DNA from: Deltaproteobacteria bacterium
Lineage (GTDB): Bacteria > Desulfobacterota > WTBG01 > JAGOGO01
DNA length: 33,763 bases
NCBI GenBank assembly: GCA_017996625.1
Contig: JAGOGO010000015.1
Span: 1 to 33,763 of the forward strand
Direction: 5' to 3'
Position 1 is the stretch's first letter, and each line of letters starts with the position of its first letter. This document shows, piece after piece, positions 10,159 through 22,093 of this stretch. Under the pieces are notes generated by a model. That model worked only from the letters and a program-made list of their open reading frames with translations. It had not been told where the DNA came from and did no database searches. The translations under genes were made by a program, and so were the position numbers.

Positions 10159-10187
10159 TTGACATTGCAGGAACAGTTTGATATATA
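10159..10187 (+). promoter_or_regulatory. Sigma-70-like promoter of the his segment
   Basis: TTGACA (10159-10164), 17 bases, TATATA (10182-10187). Initiation near 10194 gives a 26-base leader to hisB, too short for a classical his attenuator; no His-rich leader peptide is seen. Confidence 0.8.
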
Positions 10188-10219
10188 AGAAATTTTTAAC
10201 CATTTCAGAGGTACTGACC

Positions 10220-10807
10220 ATGGTGCGTGAAGCAGCCTTCAGCCGCAAAACCACTGAGACCGACATTGCCGTCCGCTTGAATCTGGACGGACAGGGAACA
10301 TACCAGATCGAAACCGGCATACCATTTTTCAACCACATGCTGCAGTTATTGACCAAACACGGCCTTTTCGATCTCACACTGAACGCCAAAGGCGACGTTG
10401 ACGTTGATTTTCACCATACGGTAGAAGACATCGGCATCGTGTTGGGTGATGCATTCCGGCAGAGTTTAGGAGATTATCAGGGAATTCGCCGCTATGGCTT
10501 TGCCACTGTTCCTATGGATGAAGTGCTGGCCTCCGTGACCGTCGATCTCTGCAAGCGCCCGGTGCTGGTGTACCACGTGCCGGTTTCGAGCGGAAAGGTA
10601 GGCACATTCGATGTTGAGCTTATCAGAGAGTTCTTTATTGCTTTTACCAATGCTGGCGGCATTACTCTGCACGTCAACGTACCATATGGTACCAATAGGC
10701 ATCATCTTATCGAAGCAGTGTTCAAAGCTTCGGGCCGGGCATTGAGTGAAGCGGTTTCTTTTGATCCGCGTATTCACGGTGTCATGTCTACTAAGGGTAT
10801 GCTGTGA
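10220..10807 (+). CDS. hisB: Imidazoleglycerol-phosphate dehydratase
   Basis: 195 aa, the normal length for a monofunctional HisB. It starts [20 protein letters not shown] and carries the two duplicated Mn-binding His motifs, [11 protein letters not shown] and RHHLIEA, plus GIPFFNHML. It removes water from imidazoleglycerol phosphate to give imidazole-acetol phosphate. The ATG at 10220 has AGAGG about 8 bases upstream; the frame could start at 10178 but that lies before the predicted transcription start. First gene of hisB-hisH-hisA-hisF. No HisB phosphatase domain is fused, unlike in enteric bacteria. Confidence 0.96.
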
Positions 10808-10824
10808 GCGTCAACGATTTCATG

Positions 10825-10865
10825 GTTCACCGTTGATCCCGCGTGGCGCGGGATCAACGGTGAAC
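10825..10865. repeat. Perfect 19-bp stem-loop between hisB and hisH
   Basis: The arms at 10825-10843 and 10847-10865 are exact reverse complements around TGG. No T-run follows, so it is not a standard terminator. Its core (CCCGCG..CGCGGG with ACCAACGGTGAACGG flanks) recurs at about 23092-23120 upstream of the NUDIX gene, which marks it as a dispersed repeat. It could alter message stability between hisB and hisH. Confidence 0.85.
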
Positions 10866-10915
10866 GGATAACGGTGAACATTCTAAGTGAATCAGGAGAA
10901 TAATTACGAGGAATC

Positions 10916-11560
10916 ATGGGCAGGGGAAGATACGTTGCGATCGTTGATTATGAAATGGGTAATCTCCGGAGCGTGCACAAGGGGCTCGAAAAAATAGGTG
11001 CCTCAGCCATGGTAACCCATGACCCAAGTTCGATCAGAGACGCGCACGGCGTCGTTTTGCCGGGAGTGGGATCGTTTATCGATTGCATGCGCAACCTCGA
11101 ACGATACAATCTGATCGATCCTATCCTCTCTTCCATCCGAAGCGGAAAACCGTTTCTCGGCATTTGCTTGGGGCTCCAGGTGCTTTTTGCTGAAAGCGAG
11201 GAATTCGGCCGGCATCCGGGGCTGAATGTGCTGCCGGGCCGGGTAGTGCGTTTTCCCCTTCATCACCTACCGGATCACCGCCTAAAGGTACCCCATATGG
11301 GATGGAATCAGGTAAAGATTCACCAGCGGCCGCCCGTTTTGGCTACCATCCAGGATGGGTCCTATTTTTATTTCGTCCACTCCTATTACGTCGTACCGGA
11401 CAGCCCGGATGTCGTAGCCACTACGACCGAATATGGCATCGAGTTTGTTTCCAGCATCTGGAAAGAGAACATCTTCGCTAGTCAGTTCCATCCGGAAAAA
11501 AGCCAGTCCCTAGGTCTGGAGGTACTGCGGCAATTCAAGAAGATGGTGGACAAAAACTAG
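10916..11560 (+). CDS. hisH: Imidazole glycerol phosphate synthase, glutamine amidotransferase subunit
   Basis: 214 aa, class I glutamine amidotransferase. IVDYEMGNLRSV is the standard N-terminus and VVLPGVGSF the oxyanion-strand region. The catalytic nucleophile is the Cys in FLGICLGLQVLF. The remaining triad members are in SQFHPEKSQ (His and Glu). It frees ammonia from glutamine and channels it to HisF. GAGG sits 7 bases before the ATG. A 109-base gap with a long stem-loop separates it from hisB, and its TAG stop begins a low-complexity island. Confidence 0.96.
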   Translation: MGRGRYVAIVDYEMGNLRSVHKGLEKIGASAMVTHDPSSIRDAHGVVLPGVGSFIDCMRNLERYNLIDPILSSIRSGKPFLGICLGLQVLFAESEEFGRHPGLNVLPGRVVRFPLHHLPDHRLKVPHMGWNQVKIHQRPPVLATIQDGSYFYFVHSYYVVPDSPDVVATTTEYGIEFVSSIWKENIFASQFHPEKSQSLGLEVLRQFKKMVDKN

Positions 11561-11693
11561 TAAGGAGTGAAAAGTGAGGAGCTAGGAGTAACGAGTAAAT
11601 GCCCTCACTACCTGCCTTGTTCTCGCGCAGGGGCGCGGAGCACGCGGAGAAAAAAAAGGATCTCCCTACTCCTTACGATATGTGAGAACCGAC
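11561..11693. repeat. Short-word island and CTCGCGC-type element
   Basis: AAGGAGTGAAAAGTGAGGAG-type words run from the hisH stop to about 11599. At 11620-11659 is a copy of the GC-rich element that forms an inverted pair at 5772 and 6165; alignment extends to the preceding TGCCCTC..CTACC. The region lies inside the his segment. Confidence 0.65.
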
Positions 11694-12425
11694 ATGCTGA
11701 TTATACCGGCAATTGACCTAAAAAATGGAAATTGCGTCCGTCTCGAACAAGGCTTGATGGAACGGGAAACCGTGTTTTCTTCTCATCCATCTGAGATGGC
11801 GCAAAAATGGGAAAACCTTGGCGCCGGAATGCTGCATCTGGTGGATCTGGACGGTGCCTTTTCCGGCAATCCACAGAACCGGGAAGCGATTGCTTCGATC
11901 CGGCAGGCAATCCGGATACCTATTGAATTAGGGGGAGGTATTCGTGACCTCGACACTATCGAAGCGTACGTATTGCTCGGCATCAATCGCGTCATCCTGG
12001 GCACTGTAGCGTACCAGAATCCTGATTTTGTCAAAGCAGCCTGCAGCGCTTTCCCCGGTCACATTGCCGTGGGCATTGATGCGCGCAACGGAATGGTCGC
12101 TGTCAAAGGATGGGCCGAGCAAACCGACCAGAGAGCACTCGATCTTGCCCAGAGATTGGAGCAGGCAGGTGTAGCAGCGATAATTTATACAGATATCAGC
12201 CGCGACGGCATGCTTACCGGAGTGAACGTCAAGGCCACTCAGGAGCTGGCGCGGACCATATCGGTGCCGGTAATTGCCTCCGGTGGCGTGGCTAGCCTTG
12301 ACGATATTCTGCGGCTTCTTCCGCTCGCCAAAGACAGAGTCCAAGGCGTAATCATCGGCCGGGCCCTTTATGCGGGGACGATCAGACTCGAGGAAGCGCT
12401 TCAGTTGGCCGGGGAGGGGAAGTAA
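11694..12425 (+). CDS. hisA: Phosphoribosylformimino-5-aminoimidazole carboxamide ribotide isomerase
   Basis: 243 aa. The half-barrel repeats of the HisA/HisF fold are visible. The catalytic Asp are in [17 protein letters not shown] (start) and [12 protein letters not shown] (about residue 170), with phosphate-binding IELGGGIRD and VIASGGVAS loops. It opens the ribose ring of ProFAR to give PRFAR, the HisF substrate. The ATG at 11694 is preferred over the in-frame GTG at 11682, as MLIIPAIDL is the usual start; the ribosome site (GAGAACC) is weak. It sits between hisH and hisF. Confidence 0.96.
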
Positions 12426-12470
12426 CCGTTCGAACGGTTCAATCGGCTTGAACGGTTTGAACGACGCCGG
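12424..12470. repeat. Palindrome and GAACGGTT-type words after hisA
   Basis: AACCGTTCGAACGGTT is a perfect 16-bp palindrome overlapping the hisA stop codon, followed by CTTGAACGGTTTGAACG, a further iteration of the same word. No T-run follows. Confidence 0.6.
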
Positions 12471-12578
12471 AAATGAACAAGTATCGCCGTATGCTGTCTT
12501 TACTCAGTAAAATCTCTCAGAACCGGCCTCTTGCATTGACAATGATACGTCGAGTGCTGCAAATACGATAGAACCTCT

Positions 12579-13349
12579 ATGTTAGCAAAACGAATCATTC
12601 CCTGTCTTGATGTCAAGGACGGCAGGGTAGTGAAAGGGATCAATTTCATCAACCTTCGTGATGCCGGCGATCCGGTAGATAACGCGAAGATGTACGACGG
12701 CCAGGGGGCTGATGAACTGTGTTTCCTGGACATTACGGCCTCGCACGAGAAACGCAAGATCATTCTGGATGTCGTTGCTCGGACCGCGGAAGAGGTGTTT
12801 ATGCCGCTCACCGTGGGAGGAGGTATCAACACCCTGCACGATATCCGTGATCTCCTCAATGCTGGTGCCGACAAGGTATCGATCAACACCGGCGCAGTAA
12901 AGCAACCGGGATTTGTGCAGGAGGCAGCCGAGCGATTCGGAAGCCAATGCATTGTTGTGGCCATCGACGCTAAAAGAGTCAGCACAGGTGTATCCGGCGA
13001 ATTACACTGGGAAGTGTATACCCATGGCGGACGAGAACCTACCGGCATTGACGTACTGGAGTGGACGAAACGCATCGTCAGCTATGGAGCGGGAGAAATT
13101 CTGCTCACGAGTATGGATTCTGATGGCACAAAAGAAGGCTTCGATATTGCCCTTACCCAGGCTGTCTCCGAATGTGCTTCGGTACCGGTGATTGCATCTG
13201 GCGGCGCCGGAACATTGGATCATCTTTATCAAGTCCTGAAACAAGGCAAAGCTGATGCAGTTCTAGCAGCATCGATATTTCACTATAAGGAATTCAGCAT
13301 CGGCGAGGTAAAGCGCTATCTCCGCGAAAGAAGCATTCCCGTCCGGTAG
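12579..13349 (+). CDS. hisF: Imidazole glycerol phosphate synthase, cyclase subunit
   Basis: 256 aa with the standard start [20 protein letters not shown] (catalytic Asp in CLDVKDG) and the second catalytic Asp in [13 protein letters not shown]. Phosphate-binding loops are LTVGGGI and VIASGGAGT. With HisH it converts PRFAR and ammonia to imidazoleglycerol phosphate (the HisB substrate) and AICAR. The ribosome site is weak. It is the last his gene here: the hisI/hisE functions that often follow are absent, and an M48 protease gene starts 60 bases later. Confidence 0.97.
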
Positions 13350-19506: not shown

Positions 19507-20586
19507 CTAGTATCGGATTTGTAGAAGCATCCAGACGCCTAAGAACGCAAAAACAAGGTTTGCGATCCATGCGGAAAGGATAGGAGGCAGTGCTCCACTA
19601 TGCCCAAGGGCCAGGCAGACGCTAAAAAACACCCAGTACCCGAAGCCCACGAAGAAACTGAGTGTCACTCCCAGCGCAAAGCCACCATGTCTTCCGATAC
19701 GGATGGCAAAAGGAATGCCCAAGAGAGCAATAACGAAGTTTATCCAGGGGCTAGAAATCTTGGCGTATAGATCCGCCAGATATGGTACCGTATCATACCC
19801 TTCCTTGGTCGTTTTTTCAATGTATTCCTTAAGCTCCTGAAAGCTCATTTCTTCAGGTTCACGCACTTCCTGCTTGAATGTCGCCGGCGTCTCCTGCAGA
19901 TGAATAGTGCACGATTTCTCGAAAGTGCGTGCAAATTCCCGCTCAGATAAAAAGGTGCGGCTGGTAACGTTAGCAAACACCCACTTATTTTTTTCCCAGT
20001 CAGCTCGTTCGGCATCGATTCTTTTCACCAACCGGAAATCGTCGTCAAAAAAATAGAGCGTTACCCCTTCTAAAACATTAGTCTGAGGATGAAAGAATTT
20101 AATATTATAAATGACACCTTCTCCCCGGTACCACAGCTGGCTTTGCGAGTAAATGCTTCTGCCATACAGCTTGCCTTTGATATGCTGAAAGGTTTGTTCA
20201 GCCATGCGGTTGGTGTATGGGGCAATCAATTCATTGCTCATCAGGGAGGCAAGGCTGATAAAAAAAGTACAGGCGAGAATCGGAAAAACAACACGATACA
20301 GACTCACGCCGTTTGCGCGCAGAGCAAGAATTTCCTGGTTTCGGGAAAGGATGCCGATGGTGATAAACGAGGAAAGCAGCACAGCGACCGGACAGAGGAG
20401 AATGATAGTACCAGGAATCAGATATCCCAGATAGCTGGCGATTGCTACGATACCCGCCCGATGTTCGATGAACTCGTCCAGCTGCCCGAAGAGTTCGATA
20501 ATCATAAAGAGCGTTACCGCTACAGCCAAACTGTAGATCAGGGTTTTCAGAAATTCCCGCAGAATGTATCTGGAAAGAATGGTCAT
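19507..20586 (-). CDS. lptG: LPS export ABC transporter permease LptG
   Basis: 359 aa, YjgP/YjgQ family. Three N-terminal membrane helices, a periplasmic jellyroll (about residues 130-270, including GVTLYFFDDDFRLVKRIDAE) and three C-terminal helices form the known permease layout. SRYILREFLKTL is the usual N-terminal amphipathic start and NQEILALRANGVS the cytoplasmic coupling region that contacts LptB. With LptF and LptB it extracts LPS from the inner membrane. GGAAA lies upstream of the ATG. It is 43 bases downstream of lptF. No LptA/B/C gene is in the window. Confidence 0.93.
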   Translation of the reverse strand: MTILSRYILREFLKTLIYSLAVAVTLFMIIELFGQLDEFIEHRAGIVAIASYLGYLIPGTIILLCPVAVLLSSFITIGILSRNQEILALRANGVSLYRVVFPILACTFFISLASLMSNELIAPYTNRMAEQTFQHIKGKLYGRSIYSQSQLWYRGEGVIYNIKFFHPQTNVLEGVTLYFFDDDFRLVKRIDAERADWEKNKWVFANVTSRTFLSEREFARTFEKSCTIHLQETPATFKQEVREPEEMSFQELKEYIEKTTKEGYDTVPYLADLYAKISSPWINFVIALLGIPFAIRIGRHGGFALGVTLSFFVGFGYWVFFSVCLALGHSGALPPILSAWIANLVFAFLGVWMLLQIRY

Positions 20587-20629: not shown

Positions 20630-22093
20630 TCAATCCAGAGCATGCTCTTTAATCGTCCTGAAGACCGCGTCGTCAATGCCAGGCACCTTCCTTAACTCAT
20701 CGAAAGATTTAATTTCACCCTGGTGCTTGCGATACTCTGTGATCTGTGCAGCAATATCCGCGCTGATTCCCAACTTGAGCATAAGCATCTGTTCACCGTC
20801 ATTATTCAGATCTTGCAGAACAGTGACTTGTTCGGCATCACCGCGGGCCGATCCTTCCAGAAGCATATTGAATACATTCTGAACAGATTTTAGGCCGTGT
20901 GACAGGTGCTCAATGAGTGCGATGGAGGACTCCTGCTGACCCTTCCGGAAAAGGTAAAAGGCAAGCAAGAGAAATACTCCATTCGGGATCCACATGGCAA
21001 CCAGCGGATCAACAACTCCGGTTCCGCCCAGATTTTTCCCAAAGGAGAAGAGTACGTAATAGATCAGAACAATAATCAGGCCGATCACAAAGCCATACGA
21101 ACGGCCCGATCGGGGAGAATACACACCAAGAGGAACAGCAACGAGGCCGAAAACCAGACAAGCAAATGGTATGGCAAACCGACTGTGAAAGTTGACCAAA
21201 AGCGGGTACTTTTTTGGAGAGTGCTGCTGCGCGGCAGCTTGCGCCAGGAGTTCGGAATTCAGCATTTCTTTTTCATCCTTAGAAGAGCTCCGCCGTTTGG
21301 TCAGCGATTGTCGCAGATCGAGGTTGAGGCTATACGTCGCAAAGTCAATAAGCTGATATGTCCTTCCCTTGCGGTCGAGCCGATGAATGCTTCCGTTTTC
21401 CAAGTGGAGAGTCAGCTCAAGCTTATCGGGCTCTGAAATAAGGAGACCTTCTTGGGCAACGATGGTAGCTGGGCTATCGGTCTGCCGGGTGTCGGAAATC
21501 AGGACTCCCTTCAGGCGCTGTCCATGAATCGGAATTTCATCGACATAGATCATGAGTCCGCTGAAATTAGTATTGAAGATCCGTTCCTTGAGTCCGATTT
21601 CCGCCTTGGTTCGAGCAATGTTATACAAAAACCGCTTGAGCGCATAGCTTGTTCGTGGCACCATGTAAACGGTAAAAAGCGTAGTGATGAGATAAGCAAT
21701 GAGAGAGACGAGCAAAATGGGACGAAAGAGGCGCCTCAGGCTCATTCCTGACGCTTTGGCAGCAATAATTTCTCCATCCGAGGACATGCGTCCCAGCGTA
21801 ATCAAACATCCGATCAGAAAGCTGATAGGAATAACGAATCCGAGTAGCGAAGGAACAAACAGAACAACAAGAATCATGGCTTCACGCAGTCCAAGGCCGG
21901 CATTGACTATCATCTCCGTAAGCTTGAAGATCTGGCTCATGAAGGCGGTGAACGTGAAAACCAGCGTACAAATACCGAAATTTGTAAGACATTCGGTAAA
22001 CAGGTATGAACTGAATATTCCTATTCTGAACAAGGAACGACTTCGTTTCACAGAGTGCCTAAAAATGAAGGATGACCGCTCGCGAAAAAACAC
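20630..22093 (-). CDS. lptF: LPS export permease LptF with a C-terminal helix-hairpin-helix domain
   Basis: 487 aa, about 100-120 longer than usual LptF. Residues from about 24 to 390 follow the YjgP/YjgQ plan: three helices, coupling segment DGEIIAAKASGMSLRRLFRP, periplasmic jellyroll, three helices. After the last helix an amphipathic linker leads to residues about 423-487 (20630-20827), which match a ComEA-type helix-hairpin-helix: ISADIAAQITEYRKHQGEIK then SFDELRKVPGIDDAVF. LptF ends in the cytoplasm, so this DNA-binding-type fold would lie there. The frame opens at GTG 22093; the N-terminal 20 residues are atypical and the real start may be a TTG slightly downstream. It is upstream of lptG and pgsA. 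Confidence 0.88.
   Translation of the reverse strand: MFFRERSSFIFRHSVKRSRSLFRIGIFSSYLFTECLTNFGICTLVFTFTAFMSQIFKLTEMIVNAGLGLREAMILVVLFVPSLLGFVIPISFLIGCLITLGRMSSDGEIIAAKASGMSLRRLFRPILLVSLIAYLITTLFTVYMVPRTSYALKRFLYNIARTKAEIGLKERIFNTNFSGLMIYVDEIPIHGQRLKGVLISDTRQTDSPATIVAQEGLLISEPDKLELTLHLENGSIHRLDRKGRTYQLIDFATYSLNLDLRQSLTKRRSSSKDEKEMLNSELLAQAAAQQHSPKKYPLLVNFHSRFAIPFACLVFGLVAVPLGVYSPRSGRSYGFVIGLIIVLIYYVLFSFGKNLGGTGVVDPLVAMWIPNGVFLLLAFYLFRKGQQESSIALIEHLSHGLKSVQNVFNMLLEGSARGDAEQVTVLQDLNNDGEQMLMLKLGISADIAAQITEYRKHQGEIKSFDELRKVPGIDDAVFRTIKEHALD

Follow-up and report, generated by a model that had tools for sequence, protein, structure and literature searches.

A ComEA-type helix-hairpin-helix domain at the predicted cytoplasmic end of LptF in two related genera, and its possible reuse as a protein-contact module

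The LptF protein encoded in the window (the whole 33,763-nucleotide stretch of DNA analyzed here) ends in a ComEA-type helix-hairpin-helix (HhH) domain, and the same architecture was found in a sister genus of the same small family of uncultured deltaproteobacteria. While the fusion itself was seen directly in these two genera, its function is what we infer, and we tentatively suggest that the Lpt machine has put a captured HhH domain to new use as a module for protein contacts on the cytoplasmic side, probably with the LptB ATPase. The relevant features of the window are as follows.

20630 to 22093, minus strand: lptF gene, an open reading frame of 487 aa assigned with Pfam and NCBIfam.
20942 to 22006, minus strand: LptF permease core, residues 30–384, delimited by PF03739, hydropathy and alignment to solved LptF chains.
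20852 to 20941, minus strand: juxtamembrane cytoplasmic segment, residues 385–414, delimited by pairwise comparison with the sister protein.
20822 to 20851, minus strand: variable linker, residues 415–424, delimited by comparison with the sister protein.
20642 to 20821, minus strand: ComEA-type HhH domain, residues 425–484, delimited by HHH_3, an AF2 model, Foldseek and residue mapping.
19507 to 20586, minus strand: lptG gene, 359 aa and of ordinary length, directly downstream of lptF (TIGR04408, 306 bits).

The lptF frame runs without an internal stop across all 487 residues, from a GTG at 22093 (an uncertain start) to the stop codon at 20630–20632. The LptF_LptG family (PF03739) matched residues 30–384 with 314.7 bits in Pfam, and the score against the NCBIfam LptF equivalog TIGR04407 (267 bits vs a cut-off of 230) places the protein within LptF. 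Hydropathy analysis predicted six transmembrane (TM) helices with a periplasmic domain between TM3 and TM4, and since the large loop separates the third and fourth of the six hydrophobic segments, the C-terminus is predicted to lie on the cytoplasmic side, in agreement with homology to the solved LptF chains. In its full-length core, which aligns to the solved LptF chains (362–375 aa), its six TM helices, its lptF–lptG gene order and its equivalog-level score, the window protein resembles the LptF of the LptB2FG exporter, whereas it differs in being about 100 residues longer than the solved chains and in carrying the HhH domain at its end. The juxtamembrane segment that precedes the linker resembles the C-terminal tail that LptFs without a fusion normally have. 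Elsewhere in the window, positions 10178–13349 hold a run of histidine-synthesis genes (hisB-, hisH-, hisA- and hisF-like frames), as judged from the translations only.

Profile searches revealed an HHH_3 match at residues 428–483 of the window LptF (35.1 bits against a Pfam cut-off of 27, E 1.4e-8), and a genome-wide scan recovered the same family at 20645–20812 (39.2 bits, E 2.2e-9). The original prediction had placed a ComEA-type HhH domain on the LptF tail at 20630–20827; its coordinates proved right, and the HhH profile match that it called for is significant. The two hairpins correspond to LKLGISADIA and VPGIDDAVF. An AF2 model computed from two sequences reached a pLDDT of 82 overall and of about 90 over the HhH domain, while a single-sequence model of a longer tail was poor (pLDDT 60). 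Foldseek comparison of the former returned, as best matches, HhH domains from KIF22 and TEFM, followed by ComEA (8dss; TM 0.65, rmsd 1.6), these three at probabilities of 1.00, with PsbU and Tex further down; E-values were above 0.001, as expected for such a small domain. By this model the tail has the HhH fold, and by its Pfam score it belongs to HHH_3. The tail is neither a chance match nor read-through, because both other frames of the minus strand contain stops across this stretch and the lptF frame alone is open, the same fusion occurs in another genus, and the modeled domain reaches a pLDDT of about 90.

Among known proteins, ComEA (HHH_3 PF12836, TIGR00426) is the best-related sequence family, shares the two HhH motifs and is found among the fold matches. 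The tail also matched the NCBIfam ComEA models TIGR01259 and NF045978, in both cases under the whole-protein cut-offs (29.1 bits vs 152 for TIGR01259), so that the protein is not a ComEA as a whole. Indeed, it has no signal peptide, SLBB domain or oligomerization domain, its DNA-binding signature is degraded, and its tail is predicted to be cytoplasmic, whereas ComEA is secreted or membrane-anchored outside the cytoplasm. The best sequence match among solved structures was human EEPD1 (E 2.6e-6), which carries tandem ComEA-like HhH motifs but is a nuclease-family protein unrelated to LPS export; ComEA was second.

The same HhH fusion is present in the LptF of a sister genus (genome G002), which shares 53% identity with the window LptF, and JAFGRE010000191.1 (Deltaproteobacteria bacterium isolate Zod_Metabat.815, a metagenome assembly) gives the same LptF match as G002. 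The gene order is also as in the window, with lptG directly after lptF and NUDIX-type and RelA/SpoT-type frames upstream, and neither a stop codon nor a separate gene, either of which would have spoken against the fusion, is present at the junction in the sister. The HHH_3 score of the sister tail (53–57 bits) exceeds that of the window tail. Identity between the two proteins is highest in the core (57.7%) and still 45.8% in the HhH domain, but falls to 33% in the juxtamembrane segment and to none of the 10 linker positions; LMLKLGI and IKE are among the residues shared by both tails. The HhH domain has thus been retained, under constraint, while the linker diverged.

Outside these two genera the fusion was not encountered in the genomes covered. 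Besides the window genome, two genomes of the family were covered, the sister genome and a third, 76% complete (G001), whose bin contains neither lptF nor lptB. An HHH_3 match in this third genome was considered as a fused LptF and rejected; it lies on contig C159 inside a 367-aa protein that looks GspK-type, beside general-secretion-type genes. For LptFs from the remainder of the class and from about 275 genomes of the phylum, the alignment reaches no further than about residue 421, and no HhH fusion was found outside the family. Searching 198 genomes with the tail alone gave no other fused LptF among the matches listed, a search of genome contigs for the fusion returned only the sister and one distant LptF, and a plasmid search with the tail gave no match. 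Taken together, these searches suggest that the HhH–LptF fusion arose once, at the base of the family. A literature search, which covered few subscription journals, did not find an LptF with a helix-hairpin-helix domain, and earlier notice of the architecture is possible.

To judge the DNA-binding signature, we relied on Bacillus subtilis ComEA, whose lysines K164 and K199 are critical for transformation, with a contribution from K193 and K197 (PMC9747964). Alignment mapping of ComEA G159/G161/K164/G189/G191/K193/K197/K199 gave G, S, I, G, D, A, T and K in the window protein, such that the second glycine is lost in both hairpins (to S and D) and three of the four lysines are lost (I, A, T, K); the net charge of the domain is −2. 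At the same eight positions the sister tail reads G, G, K, G, G, K, K and K, retaining all of them, including K164, and it passes the ComEA HhH-repeat model TIGR00426 (53.3 vs 53.1 bits). The signature of hairpin glycines and DNA-contact lysines is therefore incomplete in the window and complete in the sister, and because of this difference, DNA binding in the ComEA manner appears unlikely for the window domain and possible for that of the sister.

As to the origin of the domain, the scanned flanks of unfused relatives showed no HhH frame next to lptF, and the window genome still has three further HHH_3 genes at other places. For these reasons a distant paralogue is the more likely donor than a neighboring comEA-like gene, as far as the sequences indicate; the donor tree of the HhH domain comprised 60 columns and gave a support of 59. 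The three remaining HHH_3 genes also led us to reject a loss of free ComEA genes. The interpretation offered by the original prediction thus held in part: an HhH module is fused to the LptF tail, and for the window protein a role in protein interaction is favored over DNA binding, given the loss of the signature in both hairpins, while the proposed fusion with an adjacent comEA-like gene found no counterpart in the scanned relatives.

A second change in the same genomes concerns LptB. The window genome encodes a single LptB (contig C134, 1435–2256 of the extracted locus) that scores 343 bits against TIGR04406 (cut-off 240); the sister LptB also scores as an equivalog, and in both genomes the neighborhood reads lptA-like, lptB, rpoN-like. 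In E. coli LptB, R198 contacts the C-terminal carboxylate of L241 and forms one genetic network with D175, F239A and R198E abolish function, and the C-terminal lock is said to be conserved among LptB orthologues (PMC6703430). Most other LptBs compared here end in YLGxxFxx. The C-termini of the LptBs of the two genomes with a fused LptF are YLGTRSLRDSAEKTIARELGTGK (window genome) and YLGKKSLNGIGKVTAELKNLREDL (sister), in which the YLGxxF lock is replaced by YLGTRS... and YLGKKS..., respectively; the switch-helix R198 is changed to L in the former and to Q in the latter. By E. coli numbering both carry F239S, V197Y and D175E, and both are extended by about 16 C-terminal residues. Among the comparison LptBs, R198 is kept in 59 of 60 and F239 likewise in 59 of 60, and the combination of R198 loss, F239 loss and C-terminal extension was observed only in the two fused genomes. 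The extension alone is not unusual, as five other LptBs with a long C-terminal extension keep F239. The changes are enriched in the above network with P between 0.02 and 0.10 depending on the conservation threshold, a post hoc value, since the network was examined after the changes had been seen.

Further LptB variation was noted in other genomes. One genome (G132) encodes an LptB with R198G and E199A that keeps F239, and another (G130) carries two LptB-like genes (contigs C95 and C15), both over the LptB cut-off. The C-terminal extension of the sister LptB contains a hairpin-like stretch, NGIGKVTAEL, possibly by chance.

On the reading that we favor, with some reservation, the family ancestor acquired a ComEA-type HhH domain by in-frame fusion to the cytoplasmic end of LptF, as the two genera with their shared gene order show, and the domain has been kept folded; in the window species it would most likely serve the Lpt exporter in protein contacts and not bind DNA. 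Protein contact is preferred because the window domain has lost the second glycine of each hairpin along with three of the lysines that contact DNA. The LptB ATPase dimer would be the likeliest partner, since the cytoplasmic end of LptF adjoins LptB2 and the coincident change lies in LptB, whose normal lock (R198, F239 and the free C-terminus beside it) is lost in exactly these genomes; in such an arrangement the LptF tail may assume or modulate control of the LptB ATPase cycle. A bolder version, in which the LptB lock was dismantled and its role handed to the HhH domain on LptF, so that a former DNA-binding module would gate ATP-driven LPS export, strikes us as doubtful. Against the link to LptB, the changes in LptF and in LptB are found together in a single family and hence amount to one evolutionary coincidence, and the clustering of the LptB changes in the network is weak. 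The loss of F239 is also possibly compensated inside LptB by the aromatic residue at position 197. In a genome with an ordinary LptF tail and no HhH domain (G104), LptB carries F239V, V197W and a shortened C-terminus, and for this reason an aromatic side chain at 197 may be able to stand in for F239 when LptF has no HhH domain.

The same observation also fits a different account, in which the tail recruits another cytoplasmic protein, such as an LPS-synthesis or regulatory factor, or dimerizes exporters, and the LptB changes are unrelated and compensated internally. HhH domains can act as structural protein subunits: PsbU is a structural subunit of a membrane complex, photosystem II, and as an HhH-fold protein it matches the window domain, although it is a separate lumenal protein of a different machine. 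Additionally, the LptFs of families f19, f103 and f38 and of genome G015 of the window's class, in all four families of the phylum, end in a cysteine-bearing Ada_Zn_binding-like domain that sits after the last TM helix (loci L019 in G015, L057, L090–L094 in f19, L095–L097 in f103 and L103 in G353), with scores of 30.9 bits at best and several under the 23-bit cut-off. Like the HhH tail, this is a small module of a DNA-related fold at the same cytoplasmic position, but it is a zinc-type domain unrelated to HhH, and in these four families LptB is canonical, keeping F239 and R198, where its C-terminus is readable (the G015 LptB is cut by a contig end). The literature search, with its limited coverage of subscription journals, did not find an LptF with Ada_Zn_binding either. 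Judged by these profile matches, small modules have been added to the LptF tail more than once. Against a partner other than LptB stands the confinement of the R198 and F239 losses with the LptB extension to the two fused genomes, and we consider this account improbable.

It is also rather unlikely that the window lineage simply tolerates the tail as a neutral passenger in decay. Such decay would fit the HHH_3 score of the window domain, which falls under that of the sister (35–39 vs 53–57 bits), and its long branch, yet the tail has stayed open and foldable, sharing LMLKLGI and IKE, while the linker lost all identity. Less probable still is a DNA-binding tail that anchors the exporter to the nucleoid or links it to chromosome position. 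The intact GGKGGKKK set and the TIGR00426 match of the sister agree with this possibility and count against a protein-contact role, but the window domain argues against it: its hairpins carry S and D instead of their second glycines, one of the four lysines is left, and the net charge is negative. Finally, an artefact of assembly or annotation that linked lptF with a comEA gene, conceivable for a draft genome of 261 contigs and a sister record from a metagenome, was in practice rejected as extremely improbable by the second genus, in which different contigs show the same junction and gene order at 53% identity.

Many Gram-negative bacteria cannot do without the Lpt exporter, which is also a drug target. 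A natural lineage that lacks the LptB lock but possesses an added LptF domain would reveal how rewiring of the ATPase cycle is possible, and it offers a direct test. Together, the HhH and Ada-like tails, a pattern that the papers searched do not mention, mark the cytoplasmic LptF tail as a place where modules are added repeatedly.
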